A stretch of 64,000 bases of DNA from Desulfomonilia bacterium. GTDB lineage: Bacteria > Desulfobacterota > Desulfomonilia > UBA1062. The stretch lies in assembly GCA_036567785.1 (NCBI GenBank), contig DATCTV010000060.1:1-64000 (forward strand). Reading direction: 5' to 3'. Under the pieces are notes generated by a model, which ran no database searches, was not told where the DNA came from, and saw nothing but the letters and a program-made list of their open reading frames with translations. Below, piece after piece: positions 42,288 to 49,982 of this stretch (the stretch's first letter is position 1; every line of letters starts with the position of its first letter). A program made the translations under genes and the position numbers.

Positions 42288-44471
42288 ATGTCAAAAAAGA
42301 CGATAGAGTTCAGCATTGCATTTCTACTGATGGGGCTCATCGTTGTCCTTGTCTGGGTGGAAAAACACCTGCCGCAATTCCAGGCAATGCCGTCAAGTCA
42401 TGTAACATTCCTGGCGCTTCTCAATCTTAACATCGTCCTTTTAATCCTGGTAATCTTCCTTGTTGTAAGAAACGTCGTAAAGCTCATGCTGGAGCGGCGG
42501 AGAGGGATGCTCGGCTCAAAGCTGCGCACCAAGCTTGTTGCATCGTTTGTCACACTCACGATCTTTCCGGCAATGGTTCTGTTCTTCACCAGCGTAATCT
42601 TTATTGACAGGAGCATGGAGGGCTGGCTTTCCGAAGAGGTCAAAAAGGCTATTGCCGAATCTCTTAATGTTGCGAACATTTATTATCAGGAGGCATCGGT
42701 TGATGCCCGGCACTATGCGACATTCATATCGGAGGAGATCACGCAGAGAAGGCTCCTTCGTGAAGGTAACCTCGACATACTGAAAGACCTGCTTGACGAC
42801 AGGATGGAAATGTTCCGGCTGTCCGCAGTTGCAGTTTTTTCTTCCCAGGGAGAGGAACTTGTCAAGATCATATCGCCCAAACTCGGGATTTCGACACTGC
42901 CCGACCCTGAATCAGGTCTTGTCAAGGCAGCAATGAACGGCGACAGCACCAGCAGGATCATCCAGGCGGGAAAGGCTGATATCATAGAAGGCATAGTACC
43001 GATACACTCTTCATTCAATCCGAAAGATATCGTAGGCGTTCTTGCAGTCGACTACTATGTACCGGAAAGTCTCTCGGGAAGGCTCGGGCTTATTGATACC
43101 TCATATAATGATTATATAGAAAGTCTGAGATTGAAGGGCTGGATAAAGACGGAATTCATAATAACCCTTACTTCAGTGACTCTGCTTGTTATCTTCTCTG
43201 CAATCTGGTACGGGCTGAACCTGTCAAAAGGGCTTACTAACCCTATAGAAAAGCTGGTCGAAGGCACCCAGAGGGTATCAAAAGGCGATCTCGGGTTTTC
43301 CGTCGACGTGACTTCGGATGACGAACTGGGAATACTTGTCAAGGACTTCAACCAGATGGTGGGAGACCTGAAGGATTCCAGGACAAACCTTGAGCAGACC
43401 TACAACGAGCTTGCCGCACGCAACATGTATATCCAGACAGTTCTTAAAAACGTATCAACCGGTGTCATATCGGTTGATGCAAACGATAATATATCGATGA
43501 TCAATGCAAGCGCCCAGAAAATGCTTGCAATAAAAATAGACAAGGTCATCGGCCGGAAGTGGCAGGATGTCATGAAGGAAGAGCACCTCCCTATTGTGAC
43601 TGGGCTGTCCGATGCCCTCAACAACAGCAAGGGATCGGTTATCGAGAGGGAAATCGTGCTGAGCATCGAGGGCAGAAGGCTCTCGCTGCTCATTCATGCC
43701 TCCATGCTTTATGACGATAATAACGAATACATTGGTGTTGTTGTCGTCTTTGACGACCTCACCGAACTTCAGCGCATGCAGCGCGTAGCGGCATGGCGCG
43801 AGGTCGCAAGAAGGATCGCACACGAGATCAAGAATCCGCTTACTCCCATACAGCTGTCGGCTCAGAGGCTGAGGCGGCGGTACCTCGACAAGATCAATGA
43901 CGACCCCGAGGTCTTTGACGAATGTACTCGGCTCATCGTGACACAGGTGGAGGAGATGAAACGGCTGGTTGACGAATTCTCGGCATTTGCCAAGATGCCC
44001 TCGTCGATGCCTGTGCCGGACAACCTGAATGAAGTGCTGACTGACGCCGTTGCGCTTTATAAGCAGGCCCATCCCGATATAGAATATATTCTGGAAACCG
44101 ATGAAACCCTCACCGGCGTCGAGATTGACCGTTCCCAGATGAGCAGGGCCATCACCAACCTGCTGGAAAATGCAACGGTCGCATTGAAGGAATCGGATGT
44201 CCCCGTCAAGACAATCACGGCAAAGACCTCCTACAACCGCGATATACGCTTTGCCAGACTTGAGATTATGGATTCCGGCCCCGGCATCCCGGAAAAGGTC
44301 AAGGAAAGAATATTCGAGCCGTATTTTTCCACCAAAAGAACAGGGACAGGCCTTGGACTGGCAATAGTAAAAAGCATTGTTACCGATCACAACGGATTTA
44401 TCCGGGTACGCGACAATAAGCCTAACGGCACAATTATAACAATCGAACTACCCGTTAAGGAGAAGGCATGA
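42288..44471 (+). CDS. NtrY-like sensor histidine kinase
   Basis: The 727-residue protein has three N-terminal membrane helices (about 7-25, 41-62, 82-105), a periplasmic domain (105-285), TM4 (about 286-309), HAMP (to 365), PAS (375-480), HisKA with His in RRIAHEIKNPLTPIQLSA, and an HATPase with DSGPGIPEK and TGTGLGLAIVKSI. This is the NtrY layout. It is encoded one base after lpxC and overlaps its sigma54 response regulator by four bases. In other bacteria NtrYX responds to nitrogen or envelope/redox conditions. The tie to lpxC here suggests an envelope signal, by inference. Confidence 0.92.
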   Translation: MSKKTIEFSIAFLLMGLIVVLVWVEKHLPQFQAMPSSHVTFLALLNLNIVLLILVIFLVVRNVVKLMLERRRGMLGSKLRTKLVASFVTLTIFPAMVLFFTSVIFIDRSMEGWLSEEVKKAIAESLNVANIYYQEASVDARHYATFISEEITQRRLLREGNLDILKDLLDDRMEMFRLSAVAVFSSQGEELVKIISPKLGISTLPDPESGLVKAAMNGDSTSRIIQAGKADIIEGIVPIHSSFNPKDIVGVLAVDYYVPESLSGRLGLIDTSYNDYIESLRLKGWIKTEFIITLTSVTLLVIFSAIWYGLNLSKGLTNPIEKLVEGTQRVSKGDLGFSVDVTSDDELGILVKDFNQMVGDLKDSRTNLEQTYNELAARNMYIQTVLKNVSTGVISVDANDNISMINASAQKMLAIKIDKVIGRKWQDVMKEEHLPIVTGLSDALNNSKGSVIEREIVLSIEGRRLSLLIHASMLYDDNNEYIGVVVVFDDLTELQRMQRVAAWREVARRIAHEIKNPLTPIQLSAQRLRRRYLDKINDDPEVFDECTRLIVTQVEEMKRLVDEFSAFAKMPSSMPVPDNLNEVLTDAVALYKQAHPDIEYILETDETLTGVEIDRSQMSRAITNLLENATVALKESDVPVKTITAKTSYNRDIRFARLEIMDSGPGIPEKVKERIFEPYFSTKRTGTGLGLAIVKSIVTDHNGFIRVRDNKPNGTIITIELPVKEKA

Positions 44472-45817
44472 AATACACGGTACTCATTGTAGACGACGAA
44501 GACAATATCAGACTCTCATTAAAGGGCAGCCTCGAGGATGAGGGCTTCTATGTCATGCAGGCATCCTCAGGAGAGGACGCACTTAAAATTATTGACAAAC
44601 AGGATGTGGACATTGTGCTGCTGGACATATGGATGCCCGGCATTGACGGGATACAGACGCTTCAGGAGATCAAGAAAATTAATCCCGACCTACCCGTGAT
44701 TATAATGACCGGTCACGGTTCTATCGATGCCGCGATAAAGACAACCAGGCTCGGGGCGCTTGATTTTCTTGAAAAGCCGCTGGACCTGAACCGCATTATA
44801 ATCACCATAAATAATGCGCTCCACATGAAGGAACTTTCAGCAGAAAACGCCCTGTTGAAGAAAAAGACAGAAAAAGACAACGAGATGATCGGGACTTCCC
44901 CCGCCATCCTCAAGCTGAAGGAGGAAATTGACAGGGCCGCGCCTTCTGATTCATGGGTTCTCATACTTGGTGAAAACGGTACCGGAAAGGAGCTCGTGGC
45001 CAGAAGTCTGCATAAACAGAGCAGGCGTAGTAATCAGCCTTTTGTCGAAGTCAACTGCGCCGCCATTCCGGGTGAACTCATAGAAAGCGAACTTTTCGGT
45101 CATGAAAAAGGCTCTTTCACAGGGGCGACAGAGCGCAAAAGAGGCAAGTTCGACCTTGCGAACAACGGAACCCTCTTCCTCGATGAGATAGGAGACATGA
45201 GCATGAACACGCAGGCCAAGATACTGCGTATTCTCCAGGAGCAGCGATTCGAGCGTGTAGGAGGCTCCCAGACCATACAGGTGGATGTAAGGGTTCTAAC
45301 GGCGACAAACAAGAATCTCGAGGAAGAGATTGCAAACGGCAATTTCAGACAGGACCTCTATTACAGACTGAACGTCATCCCGCTTTATGTTCCGCCTTTA
45401 AGGGAACGCAAAGAGGACATCCCCCAGCTTATCGAACATTTTCTCACTATGTATGCCGTCCTTAACAACGGCAACAAAAAGATCATAACAGAAGGCGCCA
45501 TAAAAAAGCTCATGCAGCATGACTGGCCGGGAAATGTCAGGGAGCTCAAAAACATACTCGAAAGGCTCGTCATAATGACCCCCGGTAACACCATTACGGC
45601 GGATAATGTCTCGCCACTTACATCAAAGGCCACATCCGAATTCGAGAGGATCTTTGATATTGATCTCTTAAAAGACGCAAGGAACGAGTTCGAGAGGATA
45701 TTCATATCCAAAAAACTCGCACAGTGCGGTTACAACATATCAAAGACCGCAGATATGATAGGGGTTGAGCGAAGCAACCTCCATCGTAAGATCAAAGGGC
45801 TTGAAATAGATGCATGA
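44468..45817 (+). CDS. NtrX/NtrC-type sigma54-dependent response regulator
   Basis: The 449-residue protein has an N-terminal receiver (phospho-Asp53 in VLLDIWMPG), an AAA+ domain with Walker A GENGTGKELVARSLH, the sigma54 contact loop GSFTGATERKRG (GAFTGA variant with Ser), Walker B GTLFLDEIGDM, and a C-terminal Fis-type HTH (NISKTADMIGVERSNLHRKI). It activates sigma54 promoters when phosphorylated by the preceding NtrY-like kinase. No -24/-12 site was located nearby. The downstream radical SAM gene overlaps its last eight bases. Confidence 0.93.
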   Translation: MKYTVLIVDDEDNIRLSLKGSLEDEGFYVMQASSGEDALKIIDKQDVDIVLLDIWMPGIDGIQTLQEIKKINPDLPVIIMTGHGSIDAAIKTTRLGALDFLEKPLDLNRIIITINNALHMKELSAENALLKKKTEKDNEMIGTSPAILKLKEEIDRAAPSDSWVLILGENGTGKELVARSLHKQSRRSNQPFVEVNCAAIPGELIESELFGHEKGSFTGATERKRGKFDLANNGTLFLDEIGDMSMNTQAKILRILQEQRFERVGGSQTIQVDVRVLTATNKNLEEEIANGNFRQDLYYRLNVIPLYVPPLRERKEDIPQLIEHFLTMYAVLNNGNKKIITEGAIKKLMQHDWPGNVRELKNILERLVIMTPGNTITADNVSPLTSKATSEFERIFDIDLLKDARNEFERIFISKKLAQCGYNISKTADMIGVERSNLHRKIKGLEIDA

Positions 45818-47303
45818 AGCAGGTGCTGTCAGAAAAGACCCTGGCGGCAGGCTGAATATAGCCCTTGTATATCCGAATACATATTTTGTCGGCATGTCCA
45901 ATCTCGGCGTTCATGCCATGTACAGGGCATTCAACGATCATCCGGGAATCGTCTGTGAACGGTTCTTTACCGATTATCCCAGATCTGTTGAAAATGCCCG
46001 GCCCATATCTGATTTTCACATAATAGCCTTTTCCGTTTCCTATGAACTCGACTGGATAAATGCAGCAAAGATACTCAAAGATGCAAAGATACCTGTCCTG
46101 GCCTCGAAACGAAGCGGCACACCGGTTGTAATAGCCGGCGGGGCCGCAGTATCAATGAATCCGGAGCCGGCAGCCGACATGCTCGATATCTGCTTTATCG
46201 GTGACGGGGAACCTGCCCCTGATATGATTCATGATGCCTTTATCATGAGTGCGGGCTATGAAGAATTCCTTGACAGGCTCGCGGGCAAACCCGGCATTTA
46301 TATACCGGGCAGGCCGCTTGCCAGGGAATTCTCCGGCAGCACACTTAACCCCATCCCATTACCAGCACATACTGCAGTGATGACGGATTCCACTGCCTTC
46401 AGCGACATGTTCCTTGTCGAGACAGCCAGAGGCTGCCCGTTTTCATGCAGGTTCTGCGCTGCAAGAAATATATATTCACCGTTCAGGGCGGTCAGACTTG
46501 ATAATCTTATACCGGCATTTGAAAAAGCTAAGGAATCAGGGCTTAAACTCGGAATGGTCAGCGCATCACTGAATAACCACCCCCAGACCGAGGACATGTT
46601 CAGGGCTATAAATGACCTTGATTTAAAGATTGCGCCACCGTCACTAAGGCTTGGAATGATCACGCCGGAGTTCATCAGTCTTATTGAACGCTCCGGCACA
46701 AAAGGCGTTACCCTTGCCCCTGAGACCGGCTCCGAGCGATTAAGAAAATCGGTATCGAAAAATATAAAGAACGAAGCCGTTCTCCTTGATATCGAAGCGC
46801 TTGTATCTGCAGGTATCATGGATATCAAGCTGTATTTCATGATCGGACTTCCTGGAGAGAACCTGGAAGATATCGATGCAATCATCGACCTGGTAAAACG
46901 CTGCCGACAGACTTTTATAAAAGTCTCCAGAGGCAATAAAAAGATCGGCAGCATCCAGGTCAGTGTCAACACCTTCGTTCCAAAGCCCAGAACGGATTTC
47001 GAGCGCATGGAAATGATCGACATCAGAGATGCAAAGAAGAGGCTTAAAAGGATTGAAGACGGACTCAGGCGGCAAAGCAATGTCAAGCTCGGCTATGAAG
47101 GCCCTAAATGGGCATACCTTCAGGCTGTCATCGCCCGGGGAGACAGGCATGTCCTTGATTTGATGATCAGACTTGCAGATGTCCCTGAATCACACTGGCA
47201 GGACATTTTGAAATCATGGGAAAGGAATCCCGACTATTATGCACTCAGGAAACGGGGGGAAGAAGAGATACTCCCCTGGGACTTTTTAAATAAGAAAGTC
47301 TGA
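45810..47303 (+). CDS. Radical SAM protein with B12-binding-type N-terminal domain
   Basis: The 497-residue protein has an N-terminal B12-binding-like fold (RLNIALVYPNTYFVGMSNLGVHA; no DxHxxG is visible), then the radical SAM [4Fe-4S] motif CPFSCRFC (Cys209, 213, 216) and the SAM core through about residue 440. It resembles the TIGR03960-type proteins whose substrate is not known. Its start overlaps the end of the ntrX-like gene by eight bases. It may modify a protein, RNA or lipid in the path set by its operon neighbours. Confidence 0.85.
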   Translation: MHEAGAVRKDPGGRLNIALVYPNTYFVGMSNLGVHAMYRAFNDHPGIVCERFFTDYPRSVENARPISDFHIIAFSVSYELDWINAAKILKDAKIPVLASKRSGTPVVIAGGAAVSMNPEPAADMLDICFIGDGEPAPDMIHDAFIMSAGYEEFLDRLAGKPGIYIPGRPLAREFSGSTLNPIPLPAHTAVMTDSTAFSDMFLVETARGCPFSCRFCAARNIYSPFRAVRLDNLIPAFEKAKESGLKLGMVSASLNNHPQTEDMFRAINDLDLKIAPPSLRLGMITPEFISLIERSGTKGVTLAPETGSERLRKSVSKNIKNEAVLLDIEALVSAGIMDIKLYFMIGLPGENLEDIDAIIDLVKRCRQTFIKVSRGNKKIGSIQVSVNTFVPKPRTDFERMEMIDIRDAKKRLKRIEDGLRRQSNVKLGYEGPKWAYLQAVIARGDRHVLDLMIRLADVPESHWQDILKSWERNPDYYALRKRGEEEILPWDFLNKKV

Positions 47304-47426
47304 ATAAATATTTGCCGCTATGAACAGAAACTTTTTTATTGTTACTTGAGACAGCCATGTGTAAAAATATTTTTTAATGCCCTGACAGCAGGCAAAAGAA
47401 AAGGTTTACATAAAGGAGGTTTTTTT

Positions 47427-48650
47427 ATGTCATTCATAGGTGAGGATCTGTTTCACTTTCAGGCATCTTTAATAGAATCAGGCTCTTCTTTTGAAGATTT
47501 CGTGCGCGAAAACTACGTCAACAAATGGATCGGCGATACCATCTATTCGGCAATGGCCATTCGGACCACTATGGTAACTGCAGCTACAAATTTTCTTACG
47601 AATGAAGGGCTTTTCAACCTTGAACGGATTCTGATGAGCCCTATTACCGACCCGCTTGCACATGATGTCGAACATGTACCTTCAATTCATTACAAGGGTA
47701 TGCCTTATGTCACGACTCATTCCATGATCTACCATAAGTTTCTGGCGTGCTTTAACCCGAAGATAAAGGGAATTTTCGTCGATTCTCCGAACATCAGGCT
47801 CGAGATAGAGAGCCCTCAGAGAAAACAGCGCGGCAAATACCTGATCGACTTTTCGCAGATCGATATTGAGGTGAAAAGAAACAGGGGCATTACACTCACC
47901 CAATACAAGAATGAACCTGAAAAGGTGAAAGCCATATTAAATGAAGACATCGAAAGGGCATATGATTTCTTCGAGCGGTTGATTATTGCCATGGTAAGTG
48001 CGGTAGCCTCAAAGAATGAAGACGAACTCAAGGCCCTTGGTGTAATACTGGAAGTGCCCAGGCAACCGTTCCCGAGATTTCGTAATGATGATATTCTAAA
48101 AAGATACGGCAAGGCATGGGGAGAGGTTATGGCCGGCGAGGAAACGAACGAGCAGTTCTTCTGGGTAACAGGGCTGATGCGTGAAAACTATGACCTTATA
48201 TACCCCTACATTCTTCCTGACGGCACCAGGCTCCCGATATCATCATTCACATCAGACATGATCTACAACTACGATATATGCGCAAAGGCCAGACAGCGGG
48301 ATACCGGCAAATTCATGCCCGCACTGGAAATCCTTTCCGGTGCAATCCGGGAATGGCTTTATGAGCCTATTATTGAAAGACTCATCGACAATAAAATTCT
48401 TACTGAAAGGCCTGTATTCGAGAATGGGAATATAAAAAACATCGAACCCCTTGCAGGCTACAGCCCATTCCTGTCAGCCGCCTGCATGACAGATGAGAAC
48501 GGCCGACCTTATTTCCCCGAGACTTTCGGCGGAGGGCTCGGAGTGGAACGGTTTCTTTATTCAGTGCTCAGAGGAAAAGCCGTTGAGAAAATAGACGATA
48601 TTACCTGCTTCGGCAAGAATCCCGATTCTTACCCTATTTTCCTCTTTTGA
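47427..48650 (+). CDS. Class II aminoacyl-tRNA synthetase-like protein without anticodon domain
   Basis: The start at 47427 follows AAAGGAGG. The 407-residue protein is built on the class II synthetase core of the Asp/Asn/Lys group. Motif 2-like SPNIRLEIESPQRKQRGKYL is followed by LIDFSQIDIEV, which mirrors the EF-x-x-x-D-x-E stretch of AspRS/AsnRS, and motif 3 is GGGLGVERFLYSVLRG. No OB-fold anticodon-binding domain precedes it; the extra sequence is a helical insertion at about 160-300. It is related to the archaeal asparagine-synthetase-like or EpmA-like paralogues. It could make an aminoacyl-adenylate for a non-tRNA acceptor. Function not assigned. Confidence 0.8.
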   Translation: MSFIGEDLFHFQASLIESGSSFEDFVRENYVNKWIGDTIYSAMAIRTTMVTAATNFLTNEGLFNLERILMSPITDPLAHDVEHVPSIHYKGMPYVTTHSMIYHKFLACFNPKIKGIFVDSPNIRLEIESPQRKQRGKYLIDFSQIDIEVKRNRGITLTQYKNEPEKVKAILNEDIERAYDFFERLIIAMVSAVASKNEDELKALGVILEVPRQPFPRFRNDDILKRYGKAWGEVMAGEETNEQFFWVTGLMRENYDLIYPYILPDGTRLPISSFTSDMIYNYDICAKARQRDTGKFMPALEILSGAIREWLYEPIIERLIDNKILTERPVFENGNIKNIEPLAGYSPFLSAACMTDENGRPYFPETFGGGLGVERFLYSVLRGKAVEKIDDITCFGKNPDSYPIFLF

Positions 48651-48695: not shown

Positions 48696-49982
48696 ATGCG
48701 TAAACGGACCTTCAATCTGGTGCTTATTACAGCCTGTGTTTTATTCCCGGTAGCGCTTACAGCCGGTGAATCCAACTATCAGCCTTTCATAGTCGGACTA
48801 AGGGCATCGGGAATGGGCGGAGCGGTAAGCGCCGATGCCGAAGGGATGGATGCCTGCTATTATAATCCCGCAGGAATTGCCGATTCCACGACCGGATCAA
48901 TTTCTGCAAGTGCAAACCTTTACGGCGTACAGAATTCTAAAACAGATGACAGCCTTTATCCTGAAGAGGACCTTAAAGCAAACACACTTGCCACCATTCC
49001 AACAGGCATCAGCGTCATATATCCGTATAATGACAATATGAAGCTGGCTTTTTCCGTTTTTGTACCCATGCAGATTTCCGCCAAAGAGATCGAATCATTC
49101 TTCGGAGAGAACAAGGAACACTATTACAATTTTACAAACAGCCTCCAGGTCCTTTATATAGGCCCGTCCATCGGATACAAATTAACGGATAGACTGAACA
49201 TCGGCGCTTCGGCCTATTGCGCATATACAACATCGAGCCAGTTCCAGAACCTGTTCTGGAAAGACTACGAGTTCTCATTCTCAAGCAATTACAAGTATTC
49301 GGTTTATGCTGCACTCATATCTGCCGGTTTGCAATACAGGTTGACGGATATTTTAAATATAGGCCTTTGCGTGACTTCACCCTCGATATGGATTTCAGGC
49401 AGCGGCACATTGCATGAGAGCGCCGTAAGGAACTCGAACAGCGACTATGCCCCTGTCTCGATATATGAGGATAATCTGAAGGCGGACAACGGCATACCCG
49501 CACAGATAAAGATGGGCCTTTCATTGAATGTCCCGAAGGAATACGGGATCGGAATGGATGTCACATATCATTTTGCCCACAGCTATCAATGGCTAGAAGA
49601 AAATGGCGCATGTTTTCCGCCTGACTGCAGCAACAGCATAGACCGAAGTCATAAGGCGGTAACTGATATACAGGTGGGTGGTGAATATTATATAAAGAAA
49701 AAATACCCCATCCGTGCCGGTTTTTTCACAAGTTTTTCATCCGCACCTGATGCAGACCCCAACGAAATAAACGAATTGCCTAAAATTGACCTTTATGGAT
49801 TTACCGTAAGTTTCGGAGTCGAGACCGAACATGTCATAACAACACTTGGCGCCCAGTATGTTTTCGGAAACGGAGAGGCTATAGGCTATAAAATGATCGG
49901 CACTGAATATCTGGAACCTACCGTGGTAAGCGCTTATGAGGACTCATTATATTTCTCTTTAAGCACGGCCTATATTTTTTAA
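48696..49982 (+). CDS. OmpP1/FadL-family outer-membrane channel
   Basis: The 428-residue protein has a signal peptide (cleaved near TAG-ESN), the FadL N-terminal hatch pattern ALRASGMGGAVSADAEGMDACYYNPAGIA-like (here GLRASGMGGAV), a beta-barrel of alternating residues and a terminal Phe. FadL/TodX proteins take up long-chain fatty acids or hydrophobic compounds. It has its own start 46 bases after the previous gene, and its transport of lipids fits the START/GMC cluster, by inference. Confidence 0.85.
   Translation: MRKRTFNLVLITACVLFPVALTAGESNYQPFIVGLRASGMGGAVSADAEGMDACYYNPAGIADSTTGSISASANLYGVQNSKTDDSLYPEEDLKANTLATIPTGISVIYPYNDNMKLAFSVFVPMQISAKEIESFFGENKEHYYNFTNSLQVLYIGPSIGYKLTDRLNIGASAYCAYTTSSQFQNLFWKDYEFSFSSNYKYSVYAALISAGLQYRLTDILNIGLCVTSPSIWISGSGTLHESAVRNSNSDYAPVSIYEDNLKADNGIPAQIKMGLSLNVPKEYGIGMDVTYHFAHSYQWLEENGACFPPDCSNSIDRSHKAVTDIQVGGEYYIKKKYPIRAGFFTSFSSAPDADPNEINELPKIDLYGFTVSFGVETEHVITTLGAQYVFGNGEAIGYKMIGTEYLEPTVVSAYEDSLYFSLSTAYIF

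Follow-up and report, generated by a model that had tools for sequence, protein, structure and literature searches.

A gene of a Desulfomonilia bacterium that resembles a truncated tRNA synthetase probably encodes an ammonia-dependent asparagine synthetase that forms AMP, is related to archaeal asparagine synthetase A (AS-AR), and belongs to a family under sigma-54 nitrogen control. The gene lies in the window, by which we mean the whole 64,000-nucleotide stretch of DNA that was analyzed. A preliminary description of this DNA had left the product and the acceptor open; residues of the amino-acid pocket, the neighbors of related genes, and their promoters now point to aspartate as the substrate and ammonia as the acceptor.

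A class II synthetase core resembling AS-AR

The gene (47427..48650, + strand) is a genuine open frame of 407 amino acids with an ATG start. Since a strong ribosome-binding site (AAGGAGG; 47413..47419, + strand) stands before the ATG at 47427, this start was preferred over the mechanically assigned TTG at 47346. The product has an above-cutoff match to Pfam tRNA-synt_2 (PF00152) at residues 35 to 398. Motif 2 (DSPNIRLE...DFSQIDIE; residues 119 to 148; 47781..47870, + strand) carries Arg124 and Glu126, and motif 3 (GGGLGVER; residues 368 to 375; 48528..48551, + strand) carries Arg375. All three residues were invariant in the alignment, the arginines of both motifs across 38 aligned sequences. 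The PF00152 match and these arginines bear out the class II motifs 2 and 3 of the Asp/Asn/Lys group that had been noted earlier. The reported absence of an anticodon-binding domain held as well, given that structural matches to AspRS and AsnRS chains covered their catalytic domain only.

The predicted fold matched AS-AR over its whole chain (residues 1 to 294), with Z of 23 and an rmsd of 2.6 to 2.7 over 271 to 272 residues. Archaeal-type AspRS and AsnRS (1b8a, 3nel, and 1x54) share the catalytic core (Z of 24 to 25) but were matched only from about residue 100 onward, and their N-terminal OB-fold is absent from the predicted fold. The AsnA structure 11as was matched with Z of 20. The initial structure model was poor around motif 2. 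A wider alignment gave a mean pLDDT of 79, with residues 68 to 99 and 122 to 141 still mostly below 50, so the pocket was argued from sequence alignment alone.

Among curated models, the best match was NF005054 (asparagine synthetase A), at 134 bits against a cutoff of 309. TIGR00458 (AspRS) reached 25 bits against a cutoff of 368, and the asnS/AsnRS model TIGR00457 did not match the protein even at an E value of 1. Pfam AsnA (PF03590) was absent from the protein's Pfam matches at E values of up to 1. The top PDB sequence matches were the AS-AR entries 3p8t and 1nnh. NF005054 scored the window protein and the same genome's AsnRS about alike (128 versus 115 bits), and it was dropped as sole proof of an asparagine synthetase. 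Because this model separates AsnRS from AS-AR poorly, the argument rests on signatures and context. A relative from Methylobacter scored 309.2 bits on the same model, whose cutoff is 309. A rooted tree with AspRS, AsnRS, and LysRS outgroups had end branches saturated at 10 and was unusable for judging kinship.

The window protein is thus a divergent relative of AS-AR that falls below the NF005054 membership cutoff. The best model, the PDB matches, and the full-length fold overlap substantiate the comparison with AS-AR made in the preliminary description. With AS-AR (PDB 3p8t, 3reu, 3rex, 3rl6, and 1nnh; NF005054) it has in common a class II core without an anticodon domain. It differs in length, at about 407 residues a third longer than the 294 of AS-AR; the roughly 110 residues in excess count against the asparagine synthetase reading. 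Segments absent from AS-AR lie at about residues 155 to 213, 257 to 300, and 320 to 365. The window family also differs from AS-AR in being bacterial, in its placement in nitrogen operons, and in its sigma-54 promoters. E. coli asparagine synthetase A (AsnA; PF03590) has the class II fold in common with the window protein and likely catalyzes the same reaction, but the window protein has no Pfam AsnA match, and both proteins co-occur in some genomes. One paper (PMC9437257) contains a description of AS-A and AS-AR as AspRS-like paralogues. No description of the present bacterial family was found in the parts of the open-access literature that were searched.

A class II core with intact motifs would also be expected of a genuine aminoacyl-tRNA synthetase that does without its anticodon domain. 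This reading is barely credible, since the protein lacks a tRNA-binding domain, the family sits among nitrogen genes behind sigma-54 promoters, and the genome has a separate AspRS, AsnRS, and LysRS. A one-to-one match to an AsnRS or LysRS, which the preliminary description had named as evidence against its own view, was not found.

Amino-acid pocket and proposed reaction

In AspRS the aspartate carboxylate is held by a lysine and an arginine, and AsnRS uses a glutamate and an arginine (survey of synthetase structures, PMC7387524). The amino-acid pocket of the window protein, HSMIYHK (residues 98 to 104; 47718..47738, + strand), aligns with HSMILHK in Pyrococcus abyssi AS-AR and ends in K104. 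A second segment, EILSGAIREWLYE (residues 301 to 313; 48327..48365, + strand), contains R308. By sequence alignment, K104 and R308 correspond to the AspRS lysine and arginine that bind the side-chain carboxylate, and both were invariant in the 38 aligned sequences. Because this invariant pair occupies the AspRS Lys/Arg places, aspartate is likely the substrate.

The surrounding signatures are of the AS-AR type. The window protein reads THSMIYHK and SGAIREWLYE against THSMILHK and SGGEREWEYE in P. abyssi AS-AR, whereas the same genome's AspRS and AsnRS read QSPQLFK and TGQLYLE. Judged against P. abyssi, P. furiosus, and Methylobacter sequences, the AS-AR signatures TDPL, THSMIxxK, SPNIRLE, REWxYE, and GIGVER are all present, the last as GLGVER in the window protein.

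In the proposed reaction, the class II site would bind ATP through the arginines of motifs 2 and 3. One carboxylate of L-aspartate would be gripped between K104 and R308, and the other would be activated as the adenylate. For asparagine to form, aspartate would have to lie reversed relative to its orientation in AspRS, so that the beta-carboxylate is the one activated; ammonia would then attack it to give asparagine and AMP. Ammonia is the most likely acceptor and asparagine the most likely product; to judge from the alignment, the Lys/Arg pair would be compatible with activation of either carboxylate of aspartate.

This ambiguity leaves room for the main rival, an aspartate ligase of nitrogen metabolism whose acceptor is a small amine or amino acid produced or consumed in the same neighborhood and not free ammonia. 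Such an enzyme would also keep the aspartate-binding lysine and arginine, from which the activated carboxylate is not readable, and the segments missing from AS-AR could shape its acceptor site. The neighbors of the Methylobacter relative, moreover, are not nitrogen genes but those of a B12-binding protein and an EamA transporter. Against this, the neighbors of the family provide and consume ammonia and glutamine, and among them no conserved gene for amine production was seen. We regard this alternative as possible though rather unlikely.

The Methylobacter gene itself lies on a plasmid (NZ_CP091425.1; L125 3887-8843), where an AS-AR-type asparagine synthetase A is accompanied by the B12-binding protein, two hypotheticals, and the EamA transporter. 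This locus is perhaps a biosynthetic cluster and not part of primary metabolism.

Nitrogen genes and sigma-54 promoters around the family

In the window, the order is lpxC-ntrY-ntrX-radical SAM gene, followed by the synthetase-like gene. The neighbors, all on the + strand and outside the proposed system, are an NtrY-like sensor kinase (42288-44471), an NtrX-like sigma-54 activator (44468-45817), and a TIGR03960-like radical SAM protein (45810..47303). The last is shorter than TIGR03960 (497 versus 605), and its score of 285 bits falls below the cutoff of 462; its gene overlaps ntrX (window 44468-47303). NtrX and the radical SAM protein form a conserved regulator-radical SAM pair, kept in 21 sister genomes of the same family, but in none of the 21 does the synthetase-like gene stand behind it. 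The linkage was seen only in the source genome. The preliminary description was therefore right about adjacency in the window, but the gene order that it proposed to check is not conserved, and a functional link to the radical SAM protein or NtrYX was rejected. Downstream, at 48696-49982 of the window, is a gene for an outer-membrane protein with a weak BamG-family match (47.7 bits; cutoff of 250).

The visible neighbors mislead; the informative context is the one conserved among the relatives. One genome scan yielded 32 loci, and whole-genome searches added more. After removal of exact duplicates, 37 of 55 loci by our own count had at least one core nitrogen gene (type I or III glutamine synthetase, GltB, GltD, PII, AmtB, GlnD, or AsnB). 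Desulfobacteraceae-type loci have the order glnA-gene-gltB-gltD-hisH-hisF-carA, in which glnA touches or overlaps the gene, and the adjoining glutamine synthetase is a true type I enzyme (545 bits; cutoff of 429). Nearer relatives have purF-gene, with glnD, PII, and amtB. A locus labeled Bacteroidetes (L033) reads PII-amtB-glnD-nadE-like-gene-gltBD, and in a Neomarinimicrobiota record (L034) the gene directly follows a type III glutamine synthetase, which is unrelated to type I. The source genome's second copy (L065) is divergent from an amtB-PII-asnB cluster whose asnB encodes a true AsnB (958 bits; cutoff of 499). In one subgroup (L010 9371-10666; also L012, L015, L016, and L017), a gene directly downstream on the opposite strand encodes a fibronectin-type-III-like secreted protein of about 400 to 430 amino acids, named by eye, with no Pfam match at 1e-10.

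The family is also associated with -24/-12 promoters. A site (TGGCAC-N5-TTGC[AT], 10 or 11 of 11 matches, 50 to 140 bp upstream) preceded 22 of 56 gene copies and 3 of 280 other genes of the same loci (Fisher P = 2e-16, only a guide because related loci are not independent). Random 300-bp windows contained one in 24 of 2,440 cases at a slightly stricter score. The family's site matches the Desulfovibrio sigma-54 consensus tGGcacg/tTGCt (PMC4641369). Several loci that begin with glnA have the site before glnA, and such sites are likewise found at amtB and at the gene for the type III synthetase. In the L065 copy, the site TGGCACATGAATTGCT lies at -99. The window copy had no -24/-12 site in the 300 bp upstream, and no site scoring at least 10 occurred anywhere in the window; it is an extra copy outside the sigma-54 promoter context. 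In most hosts, an asparagine synthetase of this kind would have a sigma-54 promoter, either to itself or shared with a preceding glnA, and would be expressed along with ammonia-assimilation genes.

The tight association with the genes for glutamine synthetase and PII could instead indicate a ligase that, like EpmA, modifies a protein, in this case by placing aspartate on a lysine in PII, glutamine synthetase, or another nitrogen protein. EpmA, the EF-P beta-lysine ligase, is likewise a stand-alone class IIb core, although the window family differs from it in adjoining nitrogen genes. The EpmA-like comparison of the preliminary description fell away, however: the EpmA models TIGR00462 and NF006828 gave no match to the protein at E values of up to 1, and the signatures are of the AS-AR type. 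With partners that vary by genome (type I or type III glutamine synthetase, PII, PurF), there is no constant protein acceptor, and a protein-modifying role is improbable. Quite improbable, too, is a HisZ-like regulatory subunit that would act on glutamine synthetase after sensing aspartate, asparagine, or AMP. The gene does adjoin or overlap glnA in many loci, but the family also adjoins an unrelated type of glutamine synthetase, and the ATP- and aspartate-binding residues invariant in 38 sequences would be needless in a mere sensor.

Distribution, redundancy, and significance

Of 24 genomes in the same family, 23 had the gene, against none of 18 in the sister family; across the phylum it occurred in 24 of 395 genomes, scattered across six families. 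The hosts are mainly Desulfobacterota, with single metagenome-assembled genome (MAG) records labeled Bacteroidetes, Neomarinimicrobiota, and Wallbacteria. Homologues were 58 to 77% identical to the window protein, and more than 100 of 407 columns were invariant. A distribution this patchy, combined with such strong conservation, suggests that a catalytically constrained enzyme was transferred horizontally. Searches of phages and viral contigs gave no match to the family, and a phage or viral origin was rejected. Two copies with 76% identity lie on separate contigs of the source genome, and some relatives also have two. In one genome (G376), the second copy (L113/L122; G376:C2:2729-3649) contains a single in-frame TGA, and its match is limited to residues 1 to 309; it is possibly a decaying duplicate.

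The chief doubt about the asparagine synthetase reading is redundancy, as a true AsnB is encoded in the same genome. AsnB-family genes co-occurred with the gene in 40 of 42 gene-bearing genomes of the class and in 17 of 21 in another count, and AsnA co-occurred with it in some genomes. A complementary distribution with AsnB and AsnA therefore failed as proof, because most genomes have both. A second asparagine source beside the true AsnB of the same locus would be redundant, which favors an acceptor other than ammonia. E. coli, though, also has both AsnA and AsnB. Judging by enteric AsnA, nitrogen-limitation control would not be expected of an ammonia-dependent enzyme. Three genomes (G021, 94% complete; G195, 90% complete; and that of L034) have the gene with neither AsnA nor AsnB above the thresholds used, so the synthetase-like gene is the only candidate there, although MAGs are incomplete and tRNA-Asn could be provided for by GatCAB. 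GatB was found in most gene-bearing genomes; none was found in the source genome. Among PF03590 matches, frames of about 377 to 402 amino acids (G169, G224, G264, G394, G420, G421, and G422), compared with about 340 for the strongest matches, may represent a long-form AsnA subfamily.

Some chance, though a small one, attaches to a different product, not free asparagine but, for instance, a new aspartate-derived amide or dipeptide serving as a nitrogen store or signal. The proteins would then be a distinct family of bacterial aspartate ligases under nitrogen regulation, coexpressed with AsnB and glutamine synthetase. If the asparagine synthetase reading is true, these bacteria would have a synthetase-derived asparagine-making enzyme within the ammonia-assimilation regulon, a combination not found in the portions of the open-access literature searched. 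What looks like a truncated tRNA synthetase would then become a metabolic enzyme that can be tested, and the prediction for dozens of uncultured bacteria would be clear.
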